Origin: a virus
Strand: one strand, 5' to 3'
Length of the DNA stretch: 33,248 nucleotides
Virus record (IMG/VR): IMGVR_UViG_3300033978_000174
Location: 1 to 33,248 of that record
In this document: positions 1 through 27,694 of the stretch, one piece after another
How positions within the stretch are numbered: the stretch's first letter is position 1
Layout of the letters: each line of letters starts with the position of its first letter
Position numbers and translations under genes: made by a program
Notes under the pieces: generated by a model
Database searches by the model: none
What the model was told of the DNA's origin: nothing
Seen by the model: only the letters and a program-made list of their open reading frames with translations

Positions 1-18
1 CAAGTGTTTGAGCCCTAA
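1..18 (+). CDS. 3' end of an upstream tail gene (partial)
   Basis: The first 18 bases read as five sense codons (ending Val-Phe-Glu-Pro) and a TAA that overlaps the ATG of the gpL homologue as TAATG. In lambda-like tail operons the gene directly before L is M, so this is probably the end of a gpM-type minor tail protein. Only the context supports that; five residues cannot identify a family. Confidence 0.5.
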   Translation, partial: QVFEP

Positions 19-911
19 TGGCATACGCAGCTTGGGCTAGCAGCACCGCCTACAGCGTTGGCGCAATTGTCCGTGCAACGTCCGTACAGGCCACAGGGCT
101 TGTCTTTCGCTGCACTGTTGCAGGCACATCAGCTAGCACACAGCCTGCCTGGCCTACCGATATCGGCAGCACCATTGCAGATGGCACGGTCACATGGGCA
201 GCGATTAGCAGCGTCTACGAAGAACTGTCGGTACTGGCGCCGAATGCCATCATCGAGCTGTTTGAGCTGCAGCTTGACAACACGCTGCATGGTGCAAGCA
301 CGACGTACTACTGGCATAACGGCGTCAATGCCAACGTGACTGGCGACATCGTTTTCAACAGCAATACCTACGTCAGGCTTCCGGTCAAGGCGGAGGGTTT
401 TGACTACAGCAACACTGGTAGCCTGCCACGGCCAACGCTGACGATCAGCAATCTGACTGGTGATATCACAGCAATTCTGCTGCTGGTCAATGCGACGACG
501 CCCGGCAATGACCTTGGTGGCGCCACTGTCCGCAGGATCCGCACTCTGAAGAAGTTTCTAGACGGCGAGACCAATGCAGACCCCAATGCACGGTTTCCGA
601 CAGAGATCTGGTACGTCGATCGGAAGTCATCCGAGAACCGCGATCTGGTGCAATTTGAGCTGGCCAGTAAGTTTGACCTTGCAGGCGTGATGCTGCCAAG
701 GCGTCAGATCATTGCCAACGTGTGCCAGTGGCAGTACAGATCGGCAGAATGCGGCTACACCGGCAGCAACTACTGGAATGTCAACGATCAGGTGGTCGGC
801 ACCTTGGCGCAAGATGTATGCGGTAAGCGGCTTGGTAGCTGCCGATTGCGGTTTGGCTCCACTGCAGAGCTGCCGTTCGGCTCATTCCCTGGCGCTGGTC
901 TAACGCAATGA
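18..911 (+). CDS. L: Minor tail protein L (tail-tip, probable Fe-S protein)
   Basis: A 297-residue homologue of lambda gpL, a component of the tail tip complex that joins the tail tube to the central fibre protein. The core (about residues 70-230) has the gpL-type beta-rich pattern. Four cysteines at 236, 245, 268 and 275 have spacing x8, x22, x6, the spacing I recall for the cysteines that hold the iron-sulphur cluster in lambda gpL. Residues 3-65 form an extra N-terminal module rich in Trp, Ala, Ser and Thr that resembles small carbohydrate-binding modules; lambda gpL lacks it as far as I know. The start is the ATG overlapping the previous stop. Next comes gpK with a 4-base overlap, in the usual L-K-I-J order. 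Confidence 0.85.
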   Translation: MAYAAWASSTAYSVGAIVRATSVQATGLVFRCTVAGTSASTQPAWPTDIGSTIADGTVTWAAISSVYEELSVLAPNAIIELFELQLDNTLHGASTTYYWHNGVNANVTGDIVFNSNTYVRLPVKAEGFDYSNTGSLPRPTLTISNLTGDITAILLLVNATTPGNDLGGATVRRIRTLKKFLDGETNADPNARFPTEIWYVDRKSSENRDLVQFELASKFDLAGVMLPRRQIIANVCQWQYRSAECGYTGSNYWNVNDQVVGTLAQDVCGKRLGSCRLRFGSTAELPFGSFPGAGLTQ

Positions 912-1621
912 AGCTAGGCACAACGTTGCAAACCGAGATCCTCGCCTACGCGCAGGCATGCGACCCCAAGGAAATGTGCGGGGTTGTCCATGTGGTCAAG
1001 GGCCGGAAGCGGTTTTACGCCTGCAGCAACATCGCCGCAACGCCTGATGAGCACTTCGTGTTGGACCCTGCTGACTATGCAGCGGCTGAAGACTTGGGCG
1101 AGGTCGTGGCGATCGTTCACAGCCATCCTGTTACCAAGCCTGAGCCGTCAGATGCGGACCGTATCGGTTGCAATAGCAGCGGCCTGCCATGGGTGATCGT
1201 CAACCCCAAGACTGAGGAATGGGGCCAGTGCGAGCCGTCTGACTTTGAGCTGCCATATGTCGGGCGTGAGTTTGTCTTTGGCGTGGTGGATTGCTACAGC
1301 CTGTGCCGTGACTGGTATCAGCGTGAATGGGGTTTGGAGCTGGCTGACTTCCCGAGGCGTGATGGTTTCTGGGAGCGTGGTGAAAACCTGTACGTCAATG
1401 GGTACAAGTCCCAAGGCTTCCGGCGTGTGCCGTTTGATGAGTTGCAGTACGGCGACGCGATCTTGATGCACCTTGGCGCTGACCTGCCTAATCACGGCGC
1501 CATTTACCTTGGTGACCAGCAGATTTTGCATCATGTGCAGGGGCGGCTATCTAGTCGGGACGTGTACGGCGGCTACTATGTAAAGAGCACTGCCATGGTC
1601 CTGCGGCATGAAAGTCGTTAA
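908..1621 (+). CDS. K: Tail assembly protein K: JAMM metallopeptidase plus NlpC/P60 domain
   Basis: A 237-residue two-domain homologue of lambda gpK. The N-terminal half is a JAB/MPN+ domain: Glu22, then His71-x-His73 followed by Ser81-x-x-Asp84, the JAMM zinc signature. The C-terminal half is an NlpC/P60 cysteine peptidase domain with Cys129 in a DCYSL context and His196 in NHGAIY. In phages this protein acts during tail tip assembly and is thought to help local cell-wall opening; that role is family knowledge. The gene overlaps gpL by 4 bases and gpI by 14 bases, so translational coupling is likely. Confidence 0.9.
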   Translation: MKLGTTLQTEILAYAQACDPKEMCGVVHVVKGRKRFYACSNIAATPDEHFVLDPADYAAAEDLGEVVAIVHSHPVTKPEPSDADRIGCNSSGLPWVIVNPKTEEWGQCEPSDFELPYVGREFVFGVVDCYSLCRDWYQREWGLELADFPRRDGFWERGENLYVNGYKSQGFRRVPFDELQYGDAILMHLGADLPNHGAIYLGDQQILHHVQGRLSSRDVYGGYYVKSTAMVLRHESR

Positions 1622-2252
1622 GGTCTACGGCGCCCTCCGCAAGTTCCTAGGTGGCCGCTGCCGTTTCGAGTTTGAAGTAGACACACCAGCGCAAGCAATC
1701 AAGGCGTTGTGTGTGAACTTTCCTGATCTTGAGCAGTGGCTGATTAAAAGCGATTGGGGTTATCGCGTCACGGTTGGCAAGGAGCGCATCGGGCCAGAAA
1801 ATGCAGAGCTGGTCTGCCTGCCTTGGTCAGAGCGTGAGGTGTTCAGCATTGCCCCGGTGATCGCAGGTGCTGGTCAAGGTGTCGGGCAGGTTTTTGCAGG
1901 CATCGGTCTTGTCTTGGCTGCCATTGTCCTTGGCCCTGCGGCTGGAGGTTTTCTAGGCTTGGGTGCAGGATTGGCTGGGGCTGGAGCCGGAATTATTGGT
2001 GGTGCTGCAGCCACGGCAATTGGCGGACTTGGTGCTGCGCTGTTACTTGGCGGCATCTCGCAGATGATTTCGCCGCAACCCAACATGTCGCCGTTAGTGC
2101 GCGGCAAGGAAGCAGCCAGGCTTGAGAGCTTCAGCTTCAGCGGCATCAACAACACCAGCCAGCAGGGATTGCCGGTTCCGATTGCTTATGGTCGGGTCTT
2201 TGCTGGCTCAGCAGTCCTAAGCGCTGGCCTTGACGTTGATCAACTGAAATGA
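1608..2252 (+). CDS. I: Tail assembly protein I
   Basis: A 214-residue protein in the position of lambda gpI. The N-terminal part (1-80) looks like the ubiquitin-like fold of the family, beginning with a short strand and an AlaLeuArgLysPheLeuGly segment. Residues about 85-150 are a long run of Gly, Ala, Leu and Ile that would read as a membrane-like or glycine-zipper segment, also seen in gpI relatives. The C-terminus (SGINNTSQQGLPVPIAYGRV) is typical of the family. The start overlaps gpK by 14 bases and the stop overlaps the gpJ ATG (ATGA). Its partners are gpJ and gpK in the tail tip. Confidence 0.85.
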   Translation: MKVVKVYGALRKFLGGRCRFEFEVDTPAQAIKALCVNFPDLEQWLIKSDWGYRVTVGKERIGPENAELVCLPWSEREVFSIAPVIAGAGQGVGQVFAGIGLVLAAIVLGPAAGGFLGLGAGLAGAGAGIIGGAAATAIGGLGAALLLGGISQMISPQPNMSPLVRGKEAARLESFSFSGINNTSQQGLPVPIAYGRVFAGSAVLSAGLDVDQLK

Positions 2253-5200
2253 CACAGATCCAAGGTGCTGGTGGCGGTGGCGGTGGCGGTGGCGGTGGCT
2301 GCTTCCCTGGATACACGCTTGTCGATATCCCTGGCGGGCAGTGCCGCATTGATGAGCTGAAGCCCGGTGACATCGTTCTGAGCTTTGACGATCAAGGGCA
2401 GATCCTGCCTGCCAAGATCCTCAAGCTGCATGTCCACGACAGCGAACCGATCACCCGTTACAGCTACTGGGGTGGCAAACATCTTGATGCAACGCCTAAT
2501 CACTGGGTACTCAACCAGTTCAATGCGTTTGTTTGCATTGACACGCTGGGGCCTGATGACTGCCTGATTGACGGTCTAGGGCACCTGCGGCCCATCATCG
2601 CCAAGCAACCGCTAGAGCCTGGCACGGTTTACAACCTGACCGTTGAAGGCCAGCACACCTTCATTGCGGGCAACATTCGCGTCCACAACGCTGGCCTGGG
2701 TGCTACGATCGCTGGTGCAGGCGGTGGTGGCGGTGGCGGTGGCAAAGGTGGTGGTGGCACGACGCATGTACCAACGGAGGCCGATGACTCGCTGCAATCG
2801 GTCCAATACGGCAGTGTTCTTGACCTGATCAGCGAAGGCGAAATCCAAGGCATTGAGAACGGCGTTAAGGGCATCTACCTGGACGGCACACCGATTCAAA
2901 GCAGCAGCGGCATTGATAACTTCACTGGCTACACCGTTGTCACCCGCAACGGAACGCAGAATCAGGCATACATCCCTAACACCGAAGGCACGCAGTCTGA
3001 AAAGTCCGTCAACGTTGAGGTCACAAATGCTGCATCTGTAACCCGTACCGTCACGGATACCGATGTTGACCGTGTGCGCGTCACGGTGCAGCTACCAGCG
3101 CTGCAGATCATTGAAGACGACGGCGACATCATCGGCCATAGCGTCAGCATTGGCGTTTACATCCAATACAACGGTGGCGGCTTTACCAAACTATTTGATG
3201 ACACCATTAGCGGCAAGACCACCAATAGCTATCAGCGTGACTATATAGTCAGCCTATCGGGTGCGTTCCCTGTTGATATCCGTGTTGTCCGCAACAGTGC
3301 TGATGAGACCAGCGCCCGCAGGCAAAACCGCACTTACTTCAGCAGCTACACCGAGATCATTGACGAAAAGCTGCGTTATCCCAATAGCGCACTGACTTTC
3401 CTGCGGTTTGACTCGCGGCAGTTTGACACGGTGCCAGCGCGTAAGTATCTGGTGCGTGGCATCAAGGTGCAGCTACCCAGCAACGCCACCGTTGATACGA
3501 CAACCTACCCAGGGCGCGTTACCTACTCAGGCGTCTGGGACGGCACGTTTGGCGCTGCTACATGGTGCGCAGACCCAGCTTGGTGCTTGTGGGACTTGAT
3601 GACCAGTACGCGGTACGGCGCAGGCATTCCAACCAGCAGCCTGGACCGTTACGACTTTTTCGCCATCAGCCAATACTGCAACACGCTGGTCAGCAACGGA
3701 CGCGGCGGTCAGGAGCCACGGTTCAGTTGCAACATGCTGATCAACAGCCGTGATGAGGTCTACAACGTCATCCAAGAGTTTGTCGCCCTGTTTCGTGGCA
3801 TTGCCTACTACGGCGCCGGGTCGATGGTGGTGTTGCAGGACAAGCCTGCAGATCCGCAGTACCTGTTGACACCTGCCAATGTCGTTGATGGGCTGTTCAG
3901 CTACAGCGGCAGCGCACAGAAGGCACGGCACACCACCGCAACGATTGCATACCAGACCTACCAGCAGCTTGGTGAGGTCACTTATGAATATGTCGAGCTG
4001 GCAGATGCGGTTGCCAAATACGGCATCATCAATAAGGACATCAAGGCCATTGGCTGCTACTCGCAGGGCCAGGCGCACCGCTTGGGCAAGTGGGCGTTGC
4101 TGTCTGAGCAGAACCTGACTGAGACCGTCACATTTTCGGTGTCGCTTGATAGTGGCATCGTCCTGCGGCCTGGAATGGTGATTGACATTGCCGACCCGAT
4201 GAAGGCTGGTAGCAGGCAGGGCGGCAGGATCAGCGCAGCAACGACGACGACCGTAACGCTTGATTCTGCTCCCACCTTGGGAGGAAGCCCAACCATCAGC
4301 GTGCTGCTGCCTACGGGCTTGGTCGAAACGCGCAGCATCAGCGGTTTAGCGGGCAGTGTGGTCACTGTCAGCAGTGCATTCAGCGAATCTCCTAATCCGC
4401 AGAGCATTTGGATTATCCAAAGCACCGGCACGCAGACGCAGCAGTTCCGTGTTATCACGGTTGCCGAGGGTGAAGATGGCATCTACGGCATCACGGCGCT
4501 GTCATATAACGCCAGCATCTATGCCGCGATTGAATCGAACCTAAAGCTGTCGTTCCGTGATGTAGGCGATGGCGGCCTGACCGATCCGAACACCATCCCG
4601 CAGGAACCAATCGTTGAACCTGCACCTGATCCGCCGAGCAGCATTGATGGCACTGAGCACCTGTACGTTGACGGTTCCAACGTGCTCACTGCTTTTGAGC
4701 TGAGCTGGATTGAGCCAACCGTCAGGATTGTTGCCAACCGCGCCATCAAGGCGGTCAACTATCGGTTGCAGTACAAGATTGACAATGACAACTGGCGGCA
4801 ACTGGAGACGACATCACCGTCGATCCGGCTGACTGGGTTGCGTGCTGGGACGCTGTACGTCCAAATCGTCAGCATTGGCCTTACCGGACGGATCAGCTCC
4901 ACCGCAACGGCACAGTTTGCGCTGATCGGCAAGACGGCATCTCCCGGCAACGTGCAAAACTTGACGATTGAGGCCATTAGCGCCAACAGCGCCCGGCTGC
5001 GGTGGGATGCAACGGTTGATCTAGACGTGAAGGTGGCTGGCCGTGTTCACATCAGGCACACCAACCTTACGAATGGCACCGGCACATGGAGCAACAGCGT
5101 TGACCTGATTCCTGCGATCGCAGGCCATAACACCGAAGCAATTGTGCCGCTGGTCGAGGGTGAGATCCTGGTCAAGTTCGAGGATGACGGCGGCCGACAG

Positions 5201-6061
5201 TCTGCAGCAGAAACCAGTGTCATCGTTGACTTTCCTGATGCGCTTGGACGGCTGCTGGTGCAGTCAAGGCGTGAGGATGCGGATGTGCCGCCATTCCAGG
5301 GCAACAAGACGGATGTGTTCTACAACGAGGACTATGACGCCCTCACCCTTGACGGGGATGAGGAGATTGATGACGTGGTGGACTTTGACCTGCTGCCGGT
5401 GATGGACTTCATCGGTGACACGGTTGGGACAGGCACTTATGAGTTCAATGCAACCTTGGACCTCGGCGCTTCGTATTCGGTTGACCTGACTAGGTTCTTT
5501 GTCACTCGCGGATTTTTCCCTAGCGACCTGATCGACAGCCGTAATGGCTTGGTTGATGACTGGTCTGATTGGGACGGCGGTGTGGTCGATTCGGTCAATA
5601 GCAAGCTGTACCTCCGGCGTACCAGCGACAACCCAAGCGGCACGCCAACCTGGACAAGCTGGCAGGAGTTCGTCAATGGCACCTTCCTTGGCCGTGGCTT
5701 CCAGTTCAAGGCAGAGCTGACTAGCAATGACCCAGCAGAGAACATCTTGATTGATGAACTGGGCTATGAGGCAACGTTCCAGCGCAGGACTGAGCAATCG
5801 GTTGGAGCGATCGCCAGTACGGCAGGCACCAAGTCCATCACGTTTGACAAAGCGTTCTTTACCGGCACTGCCAGCCTCGGCGGCATCAATGCTTACCTGC
5901 CCAGCGTCGGCATTGTGGCCCAGAACCTTGCAACAGGTGATTACTTCAACGTCACCAACGTGACCAGCGCAGGCTTTGATGTCACCTTCAGGAACAGTAG
6001 TGGCACCGCAGTTGACAGGAACTTCCTGTGGAGTGCAGTCGGATTTGGCAAGGGCGTTTAA
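2249..6061 (+). CDS. J: Tail tip/host-specificity protein J with an embedded Hint domain
   Basis: A 1270-residue gpJ homologue, the central tail-tip protein that contacts the receptor in lambda-like phages. The order is: a short N-terminus with ten glycines (8-17); a 130-residue Hint domain (18-147); a second glycine-rich stretch (158-170); the conserved gpJ start ThrHisValProThrGluAlaAspAspSerLeuGlnSer and LeuIleSerGluGlyGluIle; the hub-forming region to about 770; fibronectin-III-like segments at about 800-1000; and a C-terminal region to 1270 probably facing the receptor. Without the Hint domain the two glycine runs would be adjacent and the protein would look like an ordinary gpJ. The ATG overlaps the gpI stop by 4 bases. 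Length is close to lambda gpJ (1132) plus the insertion. Confidence 0.9.
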   Translation: MTQIQGAGGGGGGGGGGCFPGYTLVDIPGGQCRIDELKPGDIVLSFDDQGQILPAKILKLHVHDSEPITRYSYWGGKHLDATPNHWVLNQFNAFVCIDTLGPDDCLIDGLGHLRPIIAKQPLEPGTVYNLTVEGQHTFIAGNIRVHNAGLGATIAGAGGGGGGGGKGGGGTTHVPTEADDSLQSVQYGSVLDLISEGEIQGIENGVKGIYLDGTPIQSSSGIDNFTGYTVVTRNGTQNQAYIPNTEGTQSEKSVNVEVTNAASVTRTVTDTDVDRVRVTVQLPALQIIEDDGDIIGHSVSIGVYIQYNGGGFTKLFDDTISGKTTNSYQRDYIVSLSGAFPVDIRVVRNSADETSARRQNRTYFSSYTEIIDEKLRYPNSALTFLRFDSRQFDTVPARKYLVRGIKVQLPSNATVDTTTYPGRVTYSGVWDGTFGAATWCADPAWCLWDLMTSTRYGAGIPTSSLDRYDFFAISQYCNTLVSNGRGGQEPRFSCNMLINSRDEVYNVIQEFVALFRGIAYYGAGSMVVLQDKPADPQYLLTPANVVDGLFSYSGSAQKARHTTATIAYQTYQQLGEVTYEYVELADAVAKYGIINKDIKAIGCYSQGQAHRLGKWALLSEQNLTETVTFSVSLDSGIVLRPGMVIDIADPMKAGSRQGGRISAATTTTVTLDSAPTLGGSPTISVLLPTGLVETRSISGLAGSVVTVSSAFSESPNPQSIWIIQSTGTQTQQFRVITVAEGEDGIYGITALSYNASIYAAIESNLKLSFRDVGDGGLTDPNTIPQEPIVEPAPDPPSSIDGTEHLYVDGSNVLTAFELSWIEPTVRIVANRAIKAVNYRLQYKIDNDNWRQLETTSPSIRLTGLRAGTLYVQIVSIGLTGRISSTATAQFALIGKTASPGNVQNLTIEAISANSARLRWDATVDLDVKVAGRVHIRHTNLTNGTGTWSNSVDLIPAIAGHNTEAIVPLVEGEILVKFEDDGGRQSAAETSVIVDFPDALGRLLVQSRREDADVPPFQGNKTDVFYNEDYDALTLDGDEEIDDVVDFDLLPVMDFIGDTVGTGTYEFNATLDLGASYSVDLTRFFVTRGFFPSDLIDSRNGLVDDWSDWDGGVVDSVNSKLYLRRTSDNPSGTPTWTSWQEFVNGTFLGRGFQFKAELTSNDPAENILIDELGYEATFQRRTEQSVGAIASTAGTKSITFDKAFFTGTASLGGINAYLPSVGIVAQNLATGDYFNVTNVTSAGFDVTFRNSSGTAVDRNFLWSAVGFGKGV
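2270..2299 (+). repeat. (GGTGGC)5 repeat encoding ten glycines
   Basis: Five perfect tandem copies of GGTGGC code for Gly8-Gly17 directly before the Hint domain. A second, less regular glycine-codon run lies behind the domain at 2720-2758 (eight Gly, Lys, four Gly). The two runs bracket the insertion and could serve as recombination tracts or as flexible linkers. Confidence 0.9.
2300..2689 (+). other. Hint / bacterial-intein-like domain inside gpJ
   Basis: Residues 18-147 of gpJ carry the hallmarks of a Hint fold. Block A begins with Cys18 (CFPGYTLV) and ends in IDELKPGDIVLSF. Block B contains the Thr-x-x-His motif in DATPNHWVL. Blocks F and G read VYNLTVEGQHTFI and end Val-His146-Asn147. 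The next residue is Ala148, not the Cys, Ser or Thr a classical intein needs for branched splicing. At 130 residues there is no room for a homing endonuclease. This fits the bacterial-intein-like (BIL, type A) class, whose members can splice or cleave themselves without a +1 nucleophile. Whether it splices, cleaves or is inactive cannot be told from sequence. Confidence 0.88.
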
Positions 6062-6089
6062 AGTGTAGACACTGCCTGTCTTGTAAGTT

Positions 6090-7805
6090 GTGGCTCAACA
6101 CGATTACGTCATCGCGAACGGCACTGGTGCTGCTGTCCGCTCTGACCTGAACAACGCGCTGGCCGCCATCGTCAGCAACAACAGCGGCGCGACAGAGCCA
6201 GCAACCATGTATGCCTACCAGTGGTGGGCTGATACCAGTACCGGGCTGCTCAAGCTACGCAATGCTGCCAACAACGCTTGGATCACGCTGAGAGAGCTGG
6301 ATGGCACGCTAACCATTGAGGCAGGTACGGTCTCGGCCCCTGGCTTGGCGTTCGCGTCGGACCTGAACACCGGCATCTATTCACCCGGCGCTGACCAAGT
6401 AGCGATAACCACCAACGGCGTCGAGCGCGTCGAATGGGGGACCACCGAGGTGGTGTTTAACGATGGTGGCACCAACTACGACTTTCGCATCGAGGGCGAC
6501 ACTGTTGATAGCTTGTTCTTCGTTGATGCCTCAACGGATCGGGTAGGTCTGGGGACTAGTAGCCCCAGTGCGTTATTTCATGTTGCACAAGACAGTTCCG
6601 ATGGAACCCAGGCGCGAATTACTGGCGCCACAAATCAAAACTATCAGCTTCGCTGGGGATTTGACACGACAAATCTTGTCGGTCGCATCCAATCAATTCA
6701 TGTGGGGACAGCTTACAGGGCCCTTGCTCTTAACCCTGACGGAGGCAACGTAGGGATTGGCTCTACTGCGCCCAACAGAGTATTAGATGTAAATGCTGCG
6801 TCGGGCAACGGAATCGCCCTAACTCCAACAGCAGGAAATGCAACAAACTGGATTGATTGGTTTGATACAGGCGGCGGTCCTTATGGCCGTATTGGCTATG
6901 ACCATCAAGCCAGTGCCATGCTGTTTCATACAAATAACAGCGAAAAAGCAAGGCTGGACCTAAATGGTCGTTTTTTAGTTGGCACGTCTTCTGCGCGTAG
7001 CAATTTTTTCAACACCACAACATCTACGCCTCTCTTTCAAGTAGAAGGGGCATCTTCGGGTGTTGGTCAGCTCTCGTCGTTTACTTATGGCGAAAGCAGC
7101 AACGGCGGCCCCTATCTGGTTCTTGGCAAGCATCGCGGCACTACAACAGGAGGCGTCACCTTAGTAAATGATGGTGACCAAATTGGTGCTGTTTCGTTCC
7201 AAGGATCTGACGGGAGCGAGTTTGTTGAGGGCGCGAGGATTCAAGCATTTGTAGATGGGACCCCTGGAGCGAATGACCTTCCGTCAAGATTAGTGTTCTC
7301 CACTACCGCCGACGGAGCGAGCAGCCCGACGGAGCGGTTCCGCTTATCCGCAAATGGAAGCGTCCGCGTTCCGGGTTTTTACGACTTTGCTACTGCATCT
7401 GCCGCCAATGTAAACATCGACAGTGACTACATAGTTCGCCGTTCAACGTCCTCTGTTAAATACAAAAAAGACGTAGAAACTATTGCACAAAATTATTCAG
7501 ATGCTTTGCTCGGTTGCCGTCCTGTTTGGTATCGGTCCAAATGCGATAGCGACAACCCGGACTGGGGTTGGTGGGGCTTTATTGCCGAAGAGGTCGCGGC
7601 AATTGACCCCAGACTTGTTCATTGGAGAACAACTGAGCCGATCATCAAAGAGGACGGATCAACTGTTGACGTTCCACTTGCAACGCCCGAACCAGAAGGC
7701 GTCCAGTACGACCGCTTTGTTCCGCATTTGCTGAACCTGATTAAACGGCAGAAAGAGCAGATCGAAGCGATGGAAGCCAGACTGTCAGCCCTTGAGGGCG
7801 CGTAG
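6090..7805 (+). CDS. Tail fibre with C-terminal S74 intramolecular chaperone
   Basis: A 571-residue fibre protein. The N-terminal 120 residues (start VAQHDYVIANGTG, then a WWADTSTGLLKLR segment) resemble the virion-attachment part of cyanophage fibres. A long beta-rich, Gly/Asn/Thr-rich shaft follows. The last ~120 residues are an S74 peptidase/chaperone domain: the Ser-Ser at 454-455 with Lys459/460 fit the Ser-Lys dyad, followed by GFIAEEV and the DRFVPHLLNLIKRQKEQIEAM trimer-forming coil. Family knowledge: the domain folds the trimer and then cuts itself off before the Ser. The GTG start at 6090 follows gpJ by 28 bases. From about 6560 the DNA becomes more AT-rich than the first third, suggesting an exchanged distal module. 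Confidence 0.88.
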   Translation: MAQHDYVIANGTGAAVRSDLNNALAAIVSNNSGATEPATMYAYQWWADTSTGLLKLRNAANNAWITLRELDGTLTIEAGTVSAPGLAFASDLNTGIYSPGADQVAITTNGVERVEWGTTEVVFNDGGTNYDFRIEGDTVDSLFFVDASTDRVGLGTSSPSALFHVAQDSSDGTQARITGATNQNYQLRWGFDTTNLVGRIQSIHVGTAYRALALNPDGGNVGIGSTAPNRVLDVNAASGNGIALTPTAGNATNWIDWFDTGGGPYGRIGYDHQASAMLFHTNNSEKARLDLNGRFLVGTSSARSNFFNTTTSTPLFQVEGASSGVGQLSSFTYGESSNGGPYLVLGKHRGTTTGGVTLVNDGDQIGAVSFQGSDGSEFVEGARIQAFVDGTPGANDLPSRLVFSTTADGASSPTERFRLSANGSVRVPGFYDFATASAANVNIDSDYIVRRSTSSVKYKKDVETIAQNYSDALLGCRPVWYRSKCDSDNPDWGWWGFIAEEVAAIDPRLVHWRTTEPIIKEDGSTVDVPLATPEPEGVQYDRFVPHLLNLIKRQKEQIEAMEARLSALEGA

Positions 7806-7918: not shown

Positions 7919-8071
7919 ATGTCACCTGATTTCCGCTCGCTTTGCATCCGACTTCTAATTGCCCTTGATTCCGGCAACGCCAAAGCCGAAGAGCATGTGC
8001 TTTGCCAAATCAGGCAAGCAGTCAAGGACGAAGAAAACAGGGCTATGGCGCTCACCGGCAAAGCCACCTAG
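7919..8071 (+). CDS. Small protein upstream of the integrase (50 aa)
   Basis: An ATG at 7919 opens a 50-residue ORF (starts MSPDFRSLCIRLL) that ends 20 bases before the preferred integrase start. It looks like one or two amphipathic helices (LIALDSGNAKAEEHVLCQIRQAV) with no domain I recognise. The reading frame is open further upstream, but the segment before 7919 has poor coding character. Position suggests co-transcription with the integrase, possibly as a small regulator; that is speculation. Confidence 0.5.
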   Translation: MSPDFRSLCIRLLIALDSGNAKAEEHVLCQIRQAVKDEENRAMALTGKAT

Positions 8072-8091
8072 TCACCTTCACAAATGACACA

Positions 8092-8946
8092 GTGACACTG
8101 ACAGTCAGCGAGCTATGGGACGCCTTCCTTGCGGAGCGTTCTATTTCGCTGTGCCCAACCAGCCTGACGTCTGATTACCGTCAAGTCACCAAGTGGCTCA
8201 AGCGCTGCCCAGTGCAGGATATTGAGCAGGCACGGCAGGTGGTGATCTGGGTGTTGGGGCAAACCCCAGTGCTCACGTCTCGCCGCGTGGCGATGTACAC
8301 CAAAAGCATGTACAAGTGGGCAGCGCAGGAAGACGTCGCGTATCTGGCACGCAATCCGCTGGCAAGTTTCAAGATGCCAAAGGCGCCGCAGCGGGACATT
8401 GACATCATCGTCATCCCGCGCAATGAGGTTGGATTGGTGCTAGCTGCTTTGGCCGCGAAGTACACCTATTGCAGCGCTGACTGGTCGGCTTACACCGAGT
8501 TCATGCTGCAGACCGCCATGCGCACTGGTGAGGTGCGAGCCCTTAAGTGGTCAGACATCAAAGATGGCAAGATTCTTGTTCACAGCAATTGGACCCTGAC
8601 GCACGGTTACAAAGACAGCACCAAAACCAACAAAAGGCGATGGGTGCCGCTCAACCGCAAATGCCAAGCAATCCTTGACCAGTTACCGCAGGACGGCGAG
8701 TTTATCTTCCCCTGGGACCGGCTTGCATTTCAGAGCTACTTCAGGAAAAAGCTGCAGCCGCTTCATGCTGCTGGCCTGATCTCCTATGCTTACCGTCCAT
8801 ACGACTGTCGGCATACGGCAATCAGCCGTTGGATCGAAGCTGGCATCCCGGTGCCGCAGGTTGCAAACTGGGCGGGCAATACGGCTGAGGTGATCTTTAA
8901 GCACTACTGCAACACGACTCAGGAATACGAAGTTCCTGAGCTTTGA
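8092..8946 (+). CDS. int: Tyrosine recombinase / phage integrase
   Basis: About 284 residues from the GTG at 8092 (the frame is open to an ATG at 8002, giving 314, but that would overlap the previous ORF by 70 bases). An N-terminal SAM-like DNA-binding region (VSELWDAFLAERS...) is followed by the catalytic domain. The first Arg is in TAMRTGEVRALKW, the beta-hairpin Lys in KTNKRRWVPLN, the box II Arg in YDCRHTAISRW and the nucleophile Tyr in IFKHYCN. In box II the usual first His is Tyr, and the third box residue is Asn (NWAGN), so the active site is slightly atypical. The protein would integrate and, with an excision factor, excise the phage genome, so the phage is temperate. Confidence 0.88.
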   Translation: MTLTVSELWDAFLAERSISLCPTSLTSDYRQVTKWLKRCPVQDIEQARQVVIWVLGQTPVLTSRRVAMYTKSMYKWAAQEDVAYLARNPLASFKMPKAPQRDIDIIVIPRNEVGLVLAALAAKYTYCSADWSAYTEFMLQTAMRTGEVRALKWSDIKDGKILVHSNWTLTHGYKDSTKTNKRRWVPLNRKCQAILDQLPQDGEFIFPWDRLAFQSYFRKKLQPLHAAGLISYAYRPYDCRHTAISRWIEAGIPVPQVANWAGNTAEVIFKHYCNTTQEYEVPEL

Positions 8947-15511: not shown

Positions 15512-15714
15512 GGGTTGATTGGTGTAATGGAATGGGTCTCTTCAAAGGCCAGTACATCAGGCAGGTTGTACCTGACGCGGGACTGGCCGAGTGGACATCC
15601 TAGCCTCGGGACTGTGTAATAGCTAGGCCCTTGGCCGCGTAATCGTTGAGACTTAATGCTGGACGGCTTGAGGCCCCAACGCTCGGCTAGTTGCTCAGTT
15701 GTCAGATAACTCAT
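15508..15714 (-). CDS. Small helix-turn-helix protein (excisionase/MerR-like)
   Basis: 68 residues from ATG 15714 (a TTG at 15726 adds four). [31 protein letters not shown] is a winged helix-turn-helix of the HTH_17/excisionase type, followed by [13 protein letters not shown], the usual wing and final helix. It may be the recombination directionality factor for the integrase, or an operon regulator. It overlaps Bet by 20 bases and SSB by 4. Confidence 0.7.
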
Positions 15715-16441
15715 TCTCTTTTTCAAGCATTAGTTGCAAAAGTTGATCGTGCTGCTCTTGGCTGATCTCACCCGCTTCTAGCCGTGCCGCCATACGCGGT
15801 TGCAGGTCTTCTAGATCCTGCAGGGTTTTGGCCTTAGCGATGGCCGCCTTACCAGCGGTGAACGTCTTGCTGCTGTCTACCTTAGTGGTAGCAGGCAGCT
15901 TGACCTGCTCAGCTGGCGTGACCGTAACAGTCTCGGCTTGGTCCATTTCGTCGGTGCTGTACACACCAGACATGTCAGCAGGGAATGCCTTACGGAGTGC
16001 CAGCGCCTCAGAGCATTTGGCAATCATGGTGGCGCCCATCTTGGACCACAGCCCCTGGCCAGCGTTGTAGTCCGCAAAGCGGGCAACACCAATAAAAGGA
16101 TGTTGGCTGCCTTTGCGATGCACGATGGTCTTAGCTGCAGCGGGCGGCTTGCTGGAGAGCCATACGTCTTTCCATTCGCCTTCATCACCGCACCAGTACG
16201 TCTCGCTGCCGTCTAGTTGTCCGGTGCGTTCGGCAATGGCACGCAGGCCGTCAATGCCGGCTTGAATGGTCATTTTGCCGCCACGCTTGATGGCGTAGAT
16301 CTGCTTGCTGAATGGGTCAAGGCCAGTGCGCTGGCACGCATAGGCGAACAGCCGCAGCTCATCATTGCTGCAGCCTGGCGCAATGGTGCTGCTAATAAGC
16401 TGCGTTTGCTCTGGGGTCCAAAGGGTGATAGCGGTTGACAT
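15695..16441 (-). CDS. bet: Phage recombination protein Bet (RecT family)
   Basis: 248 residues. The N-terminal 180 residues match the Bet/RecT annealase core: [39 protein letters not shown], and [16 protein letters not shown]. The enzyme anneals complementary single strands and works with the 5'-3' exonuclease encoded just upstream; the genes touch at 16441. The C-terminal 70 residues are a low-complexity and helical tail, which in relatives mediates partner contacts. Gene order exonuclease-Bet-HTH-SSB is a classic phage recombination cassette. Confidence 0.9.
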
Positions 16442-17235
16442 CAGAACTCGATGGGTGATTGCTGGTTGGCATTAAGTGCCCAGCCGGGCAGGCTGAGCGT
16501 TTGGACTGAGGTGTCGCCGTAGCCGGGCCACATGTCAGCGGCCTTGCAGGTGGCGATCACGTCCAGTGCATTATCGCGCATGGTCCGCCCTAGTGCCATA
16601 GCGGCATGGTCCAGTTCGTAAACGGCGACCGCATACGGCGCAGTCTTTTCCACTGCGATAAACACAAACCGGCCAGAGCCGTGCAGGCCAGTCAGGTAAT
16701 GCGCTGCCTGGACGTGGTAGGCAAAGGTGGCCACGCTACGGGCAAACGCTGCAGGGCTGGCGTCCTGGCATGTCTTCAGGTCAACGATGGTGCTGCCTTG
16801 ATACCAGTCTGGGCGGCACTTGCAGCGCAGTCCTGTTGGCAAGTCATCCCACCAGAACGACTGCTCGGCCTTGCCATGAGCCAGCAGCGCTGATGCAGCA
16901 GGATGCCGTCGGACGCTATCGGCCATGCAGTTAGCGGTCAGCATGTCGCTAGCCGTCACGGCTTCGATGCCAGCAGCAGCCATCTGCTCAGCCTGCTCCT
17001 TGCCTGCTTTGGTGTTGCGTGGCCCGCAGACGCCATAGCGGGATGACAGCTCATCAGGTTCCAGCACGGCGCAATGCACCAAGCTGCCTAGCTTCATCGC
17101 TGCCGTCGGTTCAACCGGCAAGCGGTGCGGGTCCAGATATCGCGCCCAATAGTGGTAAGGCGATTGCATTACCGCTTTGAGGTGACTGGCGCTGACGGCT
17201 GGGTCAGCGTGATAGTCGGCATTAGAGATGGTCAT
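16441..17235 (-). CDS. RecE/exonuclease VIII-like PD-(D/E)xK nuclease
   Basis: 264 residues. Residues 1-60 ([32 protein letters not shown]) match the start of the RecE C-terminal/DUF3799 family. Catalytic residues read Asp143 (CRPDWY), Asp152-x-Lys154 (VDLKT), then Gln176 and Tyr180 ([11 protein letters not shown]). It would degrade 5' strands at ends to make substrate for Bet. It overlaps the upstream small gene by 4 bases and touches bet. Confidence 0.85.
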
Positions 17236-25597: not shown

Positions 25598-26946
25598 GCA
25601 TTCTTGCTGCTGTTGCTGAAGGCCATGTCCTGCAGCAACTGAATGCCAATGAAGAGCTGACTGATGTAGATGCCCTGCTTGCGCGTATTAGAAGCGACCT
25701 GCACCCTGGCCAGCTTGCGTTTGTGGATGACACTGCAACGCAGATCCTTGGCATCAGTGCTGGATATGGCGCTGGCAAGACTCGGGCATTGTGCGCTAAA
25801 GCCGTGATGCTGGCAGCGGTCAATCAGGGCTTTATCGGCTGCGTGATGGAGCCAACCGGACCGCTGATCCGTGACATCTGGCAGACGGACTTCGAGGCAT
25901 TCCTTGAGGCGTACGACATCCCGTACACCTTCAGGGCTAGCCCGCTGCCGGAGTACATGTTGCACCTGCCGGGCGGTGATACCAAGATCCTGTGCCGCAG
26001 CTTTGAGAACTGGTCGCGCATCATCGGCTTGAACCTTGCCTGGGTGCTGGCTGACGAGATCGACACCGTGACGCCCAGCATTGCCAACAAGGCATTTCCC
26101 AAAATCCTTGGCCGCTTGCGCTCTGGCAATGTCCGGCAGTTTGGCGCGGCATCGACGCCAGAGGGGTTCCGGTTTCTCTGGCAGACATTTGCCAGTGACG
26201 ACGCGCAATTGCGACCGGACAGGCGGCTTATCAAAATGCGGACTTATGACAATCCGCATTTGCCGAAAGATTTTATTGAACGGTTGCGTGCCAACTACGA
26301 TCCGACCCTTCTCAAGAGTTACCTAGAAGGAGAGTTTGTAAACCTAACCACTGGTTGTGTTTACGACAGATTTGATCGCGCTAAGCATGTTTTTGCAGCA
26401 TTGCCGGACATCAGTCGTGAAGCGCTGCGGGTGGGCATTGACTTCAACATCGGCAACACCAACGCGATCATCGGCATACGCATTGGCGATCGGGCTGTTG
26501 TCATTGATGAAGTTGCTGGTGCAAACGATACCGATTCGCTAGCGCAGGAAATCCGCCGCCGCTACCCAGACCACAAGATCTACGGTTACCCAGACGCATC
26601 AGGTGGCAACCGCTCAACAAATGCCACACGCACGGACATCCAGATTTTGGAAAGCTATGGCATCAGCAACCAATCGCCGCAATCAAACCCGCCGATCCGC
26701 GATCGCGTCAACAACGTGCAGGCCATGCTTGAAAACGGCAAAGGCCAGAACCGTCTACAGATTTACCAAGGCTGCAAGCGATTGATCGAATGTTTGGAGC
26801 TGCAGTGCTGGGATGAGAAGACTCAACTGCCCGACAAGCAGTCCAATTTTGATCACATGAACGACTGCCTTGGCTACTGGCTGCACCGCGACTTTTCGAT
26901 GCTGCACAAGACCGCTGGACGCAGCACGGGGATTCGGCTATATTGA
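25594..26946 (+). CDS. terL: Terminase large subunit
   Basis: 450 residues from the GTG at 25594. The ATPase has Walker A GYGAGKT (Lys62) and Walker B LADEID (Asp154-Glu155), then the coupling segment GAASTPEGFRFLW. The nuclease domain begins near GIDFNIGNTNAIIG (Asp283) and contains IYGYPDASGGNRSTN. It pumps DNA into the prohead and cuts the concatemer. An upstream extension to 25498 overlaps the small subunit and has no family character. Confidence 0.93.
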   Translation: MSILAAVAEGHVLQQLNANEELTDVDALLARIRSDLHPGQLAFVDDTATQILGISAGYGAGKTRALCAKAVMLAAVNQGFIGCVMEPTGPLIRDIWQTDFEAFLEAYDIPYTFRASPLPEYMLHLPGGDTKILCRSFENWSRIIGLNLAWVLADEIDTVTPSIANKAFPKILGRLRSGNVRQFGAASTPEGFRFLWQTFASDDAQLRPDRRLIKMRTYDNPHLPKDFIERLRANYDPTLLKSYLEGEFVNLTTGCVYDRFDRAKHVFAALPDISREALRVGIDFNIGNTNAIIGIRIGDRAVVIDEVAGANDTDSLAQEIRRRYPDHKIYGYPDASGGNRSTNATRTDIQILESYGISNQSPQSNPPIRDRVNNVQAMLENGKGQNRLQIYQGCKRLIECLELQCWDEKTQLPDKQSNFDHMNDCLGYWLHRDFSMLHKTAGRSTGIRLY

Positions 26947-27001
26947 TTGGCGCAGCGAGGCGGCAACCTCCTGCGCCCGGCCACCTGAGTCACCAGGCAA
27001 C

Positions 27002-27694
27002 ATGGACATCATTACACGCGCAGAGGCTCTTACGCAGGGCCTGACGCACTACTTCACGGGCAAGCCGTGCCGCAACGGCCACATTTCAATTCGTGGCGTG
27101 CGCAAATGGAATTGCCTTGAATGCGACCGCAATCAAAAGGCGGAGGAACGCAAGCGCGATCCTGAACGAGTGCGGTCAAACGAAAGGCGCACCGCAGCAA
27201 AGCATCGTGAATCAAAGCGGCAATCAACCAAGCGATGGCGCGAGCGCAATCCAGATCGGTTAAAGGCTTATAATCAAGCATTTCGCATTCGCTACCGAAC
27301 TGACGCGGCATTTAGAAGGCAAAGGCAAGCCGCTTATAGGCTTCATGCCCAGAAACAGAGAGACCTGAAAACGAACAGAGCCATCAGCCTCAACTTGAGA
27401 AATCGCATTTATTACGCATTGACAAGCCGTGGTGCCTGCAAGACGCAAGCAAGCGCTGACCTGATCGGCTGCACCGTCGAAGAACTCCGCCAGCACTTGC
27501 AAGCGCAGTTCACTGACGGCATGAGCTGGACCAACTATGGACGCGACGGCTGGCACATCGACCACATCCGCCCATGCGCGAGCTTTGACCTGACCGATCC
27601 AGAGCAGCAGCGGCAGTGCTTTCACTACACCAACCTGCAACCGCTGTGGGCTGCGGACAACATCCGCAAAGGCGCCAAGTGTGAACAAGTGTAA
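27002..27694 (+). CDS. HNH endonuclease, homing-type
   Basis: 230 residues from the ATG at 27002; the frame is open to 26870 but that part overlaps terL. The N-terminus has a zinc-like set (Cys23, His27, Cys38, Cys41 in GKPCRNGHIS ... NCLECDR), then a long Arg/Lys-rich DNA-binding helix, and a C-terminal HNH core (GWHIDHIRPCASFD, NLQPLWAADNIRKG). This layout resembles free-standing homing endonucleases of cyanophages. Its place between terminase and portal could instead mean a packaging-associated nuclease. The 55-base gaps on each side set it apart from the packed genes. Confidence 0.8.
   Translation: MDIITRAEALTQGLTHYFTGKPCRNGHISIRGVRKWNCLECDRNQKAEERKRDPERVRSNERRTAAKHRESKRQSTKRWRERNPDRLKAYNQAFRIRYRTDAAFRRQRQAAYRLHAQKQRDLKTNRAISLNLRNRIYYALTSRGACKTQASADLIGCTVEELRQHLQAQFTDGMSWTNYGRDGWHIDHIRPCASFDLTDPEQQRQCFHYTNLQPLWAADNIRKGAKCEQV

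Follow-up and report, generated by a model that had tools for sequence, protein, structure and literature searches.

A mobile, endonuclease-free Hint domain at one fixed site in the tail-tip protein gpJ of uncultured phages

An intein-like Hint domain without an endonuclease is embedded near the N-terminus of the phage tail-tip protein gpJ; it is real, conserved and mobile, and apparently new to the literature, as a search of open-licence papers yielded no report of a Hint or BIL domain in gpJ. Inteins mostly reside in replication and packaging enzymes. The account that we consider probable is that of an endonuclease-free Hint resembling the A-type BILs, which is exchanged as a cassette at glycine-coding tracts and would remove itself from the protein to leave a religated or a trimmed gpJ.

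The Hint domain lies directly ahead of the gpJ body

The window analyzed here is the whole of IMG/VR virus record IMGVR_UViG_3300033978_000174, 33,248 bases long, in which tail genes in the lambda-like order L-K-I-J occupy positions 18-6061. These genes, on the + strand, encode a gpL-like minor tail protein (18..911; Phage_tail_L, E 4.6e-48), a gpK-like protein with profile matches to Prok-JAB and NlpC/P60 (908..1621), a gpI-like tail assembly protein as the 5' neighbor of gpJ (1608..2252; phrog_32, E 1.9e-43), and the gpJ-like tail-tip or central fibre protein itself (2249..6061, 1270 aa; phrog_31, E 6.7e-233; lambda_TipJ), whose start ATGA overlaps the gpI stop codon. Elsewhere in the record are an integrase (8002-8946), a sigma factor, a sliding clamp, a terminase, a portal and head genes, and an Endonuclease VII-like gene (26870-27694) is found with the terminase on one side and the portal on the other.

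The phrog_31 match to gpJ begins at residue 163 and position 2 of the lambda_TipJ model falls on residue 165, placing the onset of the gpJ body proper at about residue 164. Because lambda-J-type profiles begin at residues 163-165, the Hint domain (residues 18-147) is situated in an N-terminal extension directly ahead of the normal gpJ start. A sequence-only reading of this DNA had called attention to the unusual host protein and to two polyglycine runs framing the domain; gpJ is indeed a lambda-J-type tail tip, and glycine runs lie on both sides of the Hint, at residues 8-17 and at residues 158-170, the latter interrupted by Lys166. Upstream, the N-flank ('N-extein') comprises I-Q-G-A and then a run of 10 Gly (residues 4-17; 2258..2299, + strand), a motif found in 58/60 distinct N-flanks and in 53/54 domain-less alleles. 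Downstream, a second I-A-G-A and its Gly run (G8-K-G4; 2708..2758, + strand) form a C-flank that corresponds to the N-terminal head carried by domain-less gpJ alleles. As the gpJ start codon overlaps the gpI stop and domain-less alleles start just 5' of the same head motif, the Hint is an insert within gpJ and not a separate gene.

Fold, motifs and conservation of the domain

Residues 18-147 (2300..2689, + strand; 130 aa) had been taken for a Hint domain from the letters of the sequence, an identification that profile searches and the predicted fold bear out. Residues 1-170 match the Pfam model Hint PF01079 above its cutoff (E 1.6e-7, 31.6 bits against 29.7) and Intein_splicing PF14890 below it (E 3.5e-6, 27.4 bits against 35.8), and the NCBIfam model TIGR01443 for the intein C-terminal region exceeds its cutoff on the gpJ N-terminus (20.1 bits against 15.6). 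AlphaFold2 applied to 14 relatives gave a confident Hint fold (mean pLDDT 96.6, pTM 0.89), for which the top solved structures in a Foldseek search of the PDB were BIL domains and mini-inteins, including BIL2 of Tetrahymena BUBL1 (E 2e-10), CthBIL4 (2lwy; TM 0.90, 1.8 A), the gp41-1 intein (6qaz), NpuDnaB and others. Assignment to PT-HINT was rejected, PF07591 scoring 15.8 bits on the domain, below its cutoff of 27.7.

When viral contigs were scanned under the guidance of a profile, 517 stretches proved to encode a relative, the best 80 of 517 being retained, and viral contig loci provided 151 distinct complete domains, of which 150 are 130 aa long and the remaining one is 131 aa long. All motifs that follow are on the + strand. 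Cys1 (gpJ Cys18; 2300..2302), which is predicted to act as nucleophile in the N-S acyl shift, is present in 151/151 distinct copies, and the same holds for the block B T-P-N-H (gpJ T82-H85; 2492..2503), corresponding to the intein TxxH (TPNH in 147 copies, TANH in 3, TRNH in 1), and for the terminal His146-Asn147 of block G (2684..2689), the predicted site of Asn cyclization. Block F, VYNLTVEGQHTFIA with His136 (gpJ V127YNLTVEGQHTFIA140; 2627..2668), keeps its pattern in 150/151. The residue at -1 is Gly in 150/151, and that at +1 is Ala in 149, Ser in 1 and Gly in 1; it opens the stretch Ala-Gly-Leu-Gly (+1 to +4; 2690..2701), outside the domain and conserved as AGLG in 148/151, the other C-flanks being SGLG, AGIG and GGLG. 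The proposed limits of the domain, Cys18 to His146-Asn147, and its missing +1 nucleophile (Ala148) both hold. An internal Cys (domain C88, gpJ Cys105; 2561..2563) lies within Asp-Asp-Cys in 149/151 copies, with NDC in L229 and DDM in L272; redox control is one idea for this near-universal residue.

Because the majority of the 151 copies were retrieved by patterns inside the Hint, their invariance is partly conditioned; in a scan with the gpJ body, which involved no selection on the Hint, 22/22 Hint-positive loci were intact at the checked positions. Together with a median dN/dS of 0.12, these comparisons indicate that the Hint of gpJ is kept catalytically intact. One might consider a dead or purely structural Hint decorating the tail tip and retained in the virion, since extensions are known to concentrate at gpJ N-termini (PMC13243795), yet such a fate is improbable given the invariance of all catalytic positions, the low dN/dS and the count of decayed copies (0/151). 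The AGLG segment also appears strongly selected, though outside the Hint (pN/pS 0.07). The idea that it forms an ordered piece of the Hint was discarded, as a second model that included the flanks is disordered from +2 onward.

No close relatives of the domain were found in 50,697 cultured-phage records, and the gpJs of cultured phages share less than 40% identity with the one studied here. A scan of 84,980 bacterial species genomes gave 1 locus with a relative, on a contig in a cyanobacterial MAG bin, where the Hint is likewise at the gpJ start; 300 genomes from the family of that MAG gave 1 Hint locus, which is the one on that contig. No member of the subfamily was found outside gpJ, the two matches flagged OTHER being gpJ starts cut by contig ends. 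Since the lone bacterial relative belongs to a cyanobacterial MAG and the cyanobacterial repeat GCGATCGC occurs in 6 copies in the window compared to 1.1 expected, the phage likely infects a cyanobacterium, a host call that does not extend to the low-GC relatives, with 0 copies of the repeat.

Presence and absence at one fixed site

Judged by comparison of alleles, the gpJ Hint behaves as a presence/absence allele, always at the one site, and is dispensable for gpJ. Among 77 gpJ loci newly fetched by the gpJ body, the Hint was present in 22, absent from 51 and cut in 4, and three cultured-phage gpJs compared beside them were without it. Domain-less N-termini have the form M..IxG[AS]-Gly(n)-K-Gly(n)-TPTEADDSLQS, whereas domain-bearing ones consist of the shared head, the Hint, AGLGxx and then the head motif repeated, domain-less alleles having neither AGLGxx nor the second IxGA motif. 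Between L083 and L143 the extra DNA amounts to 435 nt between the Gly tracts. The alignment of gpJs with and without the domain, suggested earlier as a check, thus recovered both kinds of allele at the same site. On an unrooted tree of 102 gpJ bodies, presence and absence change 21 times compared to 34 for shuffled labels, gains and losses being undistinguished, and at least 13 of the 21 changes are forced by supported branches.

That the presence/absence pattern comes from assembly artefacts across the Gly repeats is hardly credible. In its favor, the contigs are metagenomic and the domain is flanked by short direct repeats, but gpJs without the domain are found in cultured phages and make up a clade of 13 rows, and the loci L137, L138 and L140, from three metagenomes, have in common the N-terminus MIEDLLLVQGAG, never seen with a Hint.

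Rare Gly-linker variants matching on both sides of the Hint, GASTGGG (L028:5001-5480) and GSKGG (L108), were also observed. The match between the flanks was rejected as proof of a duplicated target, as synonymous codons differ and the common GA and GS types vary independently of each other on the two sides (Fisher p 0.22).

Horizontal exchange of the Hint

The identity of the Hint is only loosely related to that of the gpJ body (correlation 0.36), and the AU test rejects the gpJ tree on the Hint data (p 1.5e-10) as well as the Hint tree on the gpJ data (3e-97). In the clearest pair, L078 and L100, the Hints are 98% identical in protein and 94.6% in DNA, compared to 55% protein identity between their gpJs. 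DNA identity in this pair is about 0.5-0.65 upstream, climbs in the last 60 nt, which correspond to the N-side Gly tract, reaches 0.90-0.98 in the Hint, is 0.88 just 3' of it and is about 0.6-0.7 from 60 nt past the domain. The same profile was found for L079 and L106, and weaker cases are L125/L113 and L129/L096. The presence/absence changes, the conflict between trees and the near-identical Hints in diverged gpJs argue for horizontal exchange; as far as sequence comparison can tell, the Hint moves between phages independently of gpJ. The comparison places the edges of the cassette at the Gly-coding tracts.

A Hint of 130 aa leaves no room for an endonuclease inside it. A possible agent of exchange is the phage recombination pair of the window, a RecT-like annealing protein and a PD-(D/E)XK exonuclease (15695..17235, - strand), acting on the GGN repeats. 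On the other hand, longer segments may have been exchanged in other pairs, or an endonuclease may act in trans. We propose tentatively, and with more doubt than belief, a fuller picture in which an endonuclease-free element spreads through recombination at Gly tracts, the poly-Gly linker serves both as landing site and as protection, and natural splicing proceeds by aminolysis. If so, this linker would offer repeat homology and also render every processing product harmless, and the element would spread among uncultured phages without a homing enzyme and without the residue for exact splicing.

Predicted processing of gpJ

After translation, self-removal of the Hint is the most likely outcome suggested by its motifs. 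Cys1 and TxxH would convert the Gly-Cys bond into a thioester, and Asn130, assisted by His129, would cyclize and free gpJ as H2N-Ala-Gly-Leu-Gly-. An Ala at +1 rules out standard transesterification. The freed amine could attack the thioester (aminolysis splicing), a step that Gly at -1 would favor, giving M..IxGA-Gly(n)-AGLGxxIAGA-Gly(n)-gpJ; alternatively, hydrolysis of the thioester would leave a gpJ trimmed to AGLG. Since both products would bear an IxGA-Gly(n)-K-Gly(n) head resembling the one in domain-less gpJ, imprecise processing would be tolerated, and this tolerance would explain the persistence of a Hint without a +1 nucleophile. An aminolysis route was reportedly put forward by Dassa in 2004. 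Ligation by CthBIL4, a close match in fold, is described as 'without nucleophilic side chains' in the title of Aranko 2013 (cited in PMC7664689).

Splicing, C-terminal cleavage and N-terminal transfer had been listed as possible outcomes from the sequence, and the list is chemically sound, although the invariance of Cys1 and TxxH speaks against C-terminal cleavage as the sole selected step. In its strict form, cyclization of Asn147 sheds the N-peptide and Hint as one piece, gpJ begins Ala-Gly-Leu-Gly and the other Hint chemistry goes unused. Such an outcome agrees with the invariant His-Asn followed by Ala in 149/151 copies, with the strong selection on AGLG and with the C-flank, which by itself restores in 60/60 cases the IxGA-Gly(n) head seen when gpJ has no Hint; moreover, BIL domains, in which the +1 nucleophile is missing, mostly cleave (PMC7664689). 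We regard cleavage alone as rather unlikely, however, for Cys1, TxxH and the Gly at -1 are as invariant as His-Asn, which would be unexpected if the N-terminal bond stayed unactivated; the invariance of Cys1, TxxH and His-Asn argues instead that both ends are activated. In addition, the N-flank motif is constrained (pN/pS 0.46 against 0.84 immediately upstream, in rows chosen by the motif pattern), which is odd for a discarded peptide and may tip the balance slightly toward splicing, in which the N-peptide is kept.

The same invariance of Cys1 and TxxH and the constrained N-flank would also suit a thioester that passes the Gly-rich N-peptide to another molecule, or a step that times tail assembly. 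Many close gpJs without the Hint retain the same N-terminal head, though, no partner was seen, and a Hint that moves horizontally on its own is unlikely to depend on a partner essential to every phage, so that we consider N-terminal transfer very improbable. The role proposed earlier for processing, in the timing of tail assembly or in the attachment of gpJ to a partner, is not supported for similar reasons: close relatives without the Hint keep an otherwise normal gpJ, and a tolerated mobile insert fits the independent movement and the domain-less gpJs better than an assembly device. The preferred reading remains self-removal with a religated or trimmed product.

This BIL-like domain, found at a fixed site of a structural virion protein in many uncultured viruses, represents a new home for such domains and, having moved between phages without the usual DNA-cutting enzyme, a new way of spreading. 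Close gpJ alleles with and without the Hint constitute a natural experiment on how such an element spreads and persists with neither a homing endonuclease nor a +1 nucleophile, and the 151 distinct Hints, about 130 aa long and almost always preceded by Gly at -1 and followed by Ala at +1, are candidates for studies of ligation by aminolysis.

Comparison with known systems

The gpJ domain has the fold and the blocks A, B, F and G of the Hint superfamily. Like class 1 inteins it has Cys at position 1, TxxH and a terminal His-Asn in 151/151 copies, but the Cys, Ser or Thr that these have at +1 is not the rule here. Exact excision of a standard intein restores its host, whereas the gpJ cassette leaves a scar (AGLGxx and a second IxGA-Gly run). 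The internal endonuclease of homing inteins is absent (130-131 aa in 151/151), and, unlike class 3 inteins, which lack an N-terminal nucleophile and use a block F Cys, the gpJ Hint has an invariant Cys1 and VYNLTV in block F.

Phage class 1 mini-inteins are the closest in sequence (gp41-1, E 1.5e-9) and likewise occupy a fixed insertion site. The helicase intein of Vibrio phage 13VV501A matches the divergent member L272 (E 2e-9), but it lies in an enzyme and has Cys at +1, in contrast to the +1 Ala, Gly linker and scar in gpJ. This helicase (L334:652-3153, OQ622096.1) apparently carries two mini-inteins, the second at DEC|CH with +1 Cys. The collagen-like tail fibre shared by Alcaligenes phage Afa-NA1 and Salmonella phage Sen-NF also has a Hint that runs from Cys to His-Asn and is followed by a non-nucleophilic residue, Met, at +1, but this Hint lies near the C-terminus of a different protein and is about 27% identical to the gpJ Hint. 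Both records (L331:3032-4462, PV550095.1; L332:2032-3462, PV359490.1) encode the identical 476-aa fibre, with the Hint about 13 residues before the stop; its identity between a phage of Alcaligenes and a record labelled as a Salmonella phage may reflect mixed assembly. Ruminococcus phage NatCom_3870 (L333:3983-4780 and 5643-7196; PV036417.1) has nearly the same Hint in two proteins whose C-terminal parts differ, resembling a polymorphic cassette. Lambda gpJ and its relatives share the gpJ body and the gene order L-K-I-J; lambda gpJ has no Hint, and its start corresponds to residue ~164 of the gpJ here.

A-type BILs, defined by a terminal His-Asn and a non-nucleophilic +1 (PMC7765530, PMC7664689), share with the gpJ Hint these two features, the fold and the lack of an endonuclease (CthBIL4, 2lwy). 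Known BILs, however, belong to bacterial proteins, in whose variable regions they lie (PMC7765530), whereas the gpJ Hint occupies one fixed phage tail-tip site with a mobile presence/absence pattern, and its sequence scores nearly equally against the gp41-1 intein (E 1.5e-9) and CthBIL4 (2.6e-9). Because of this different setting and the near-equal scores we do not claim membership, although the gpJ Hint would work like an A-type BIL.
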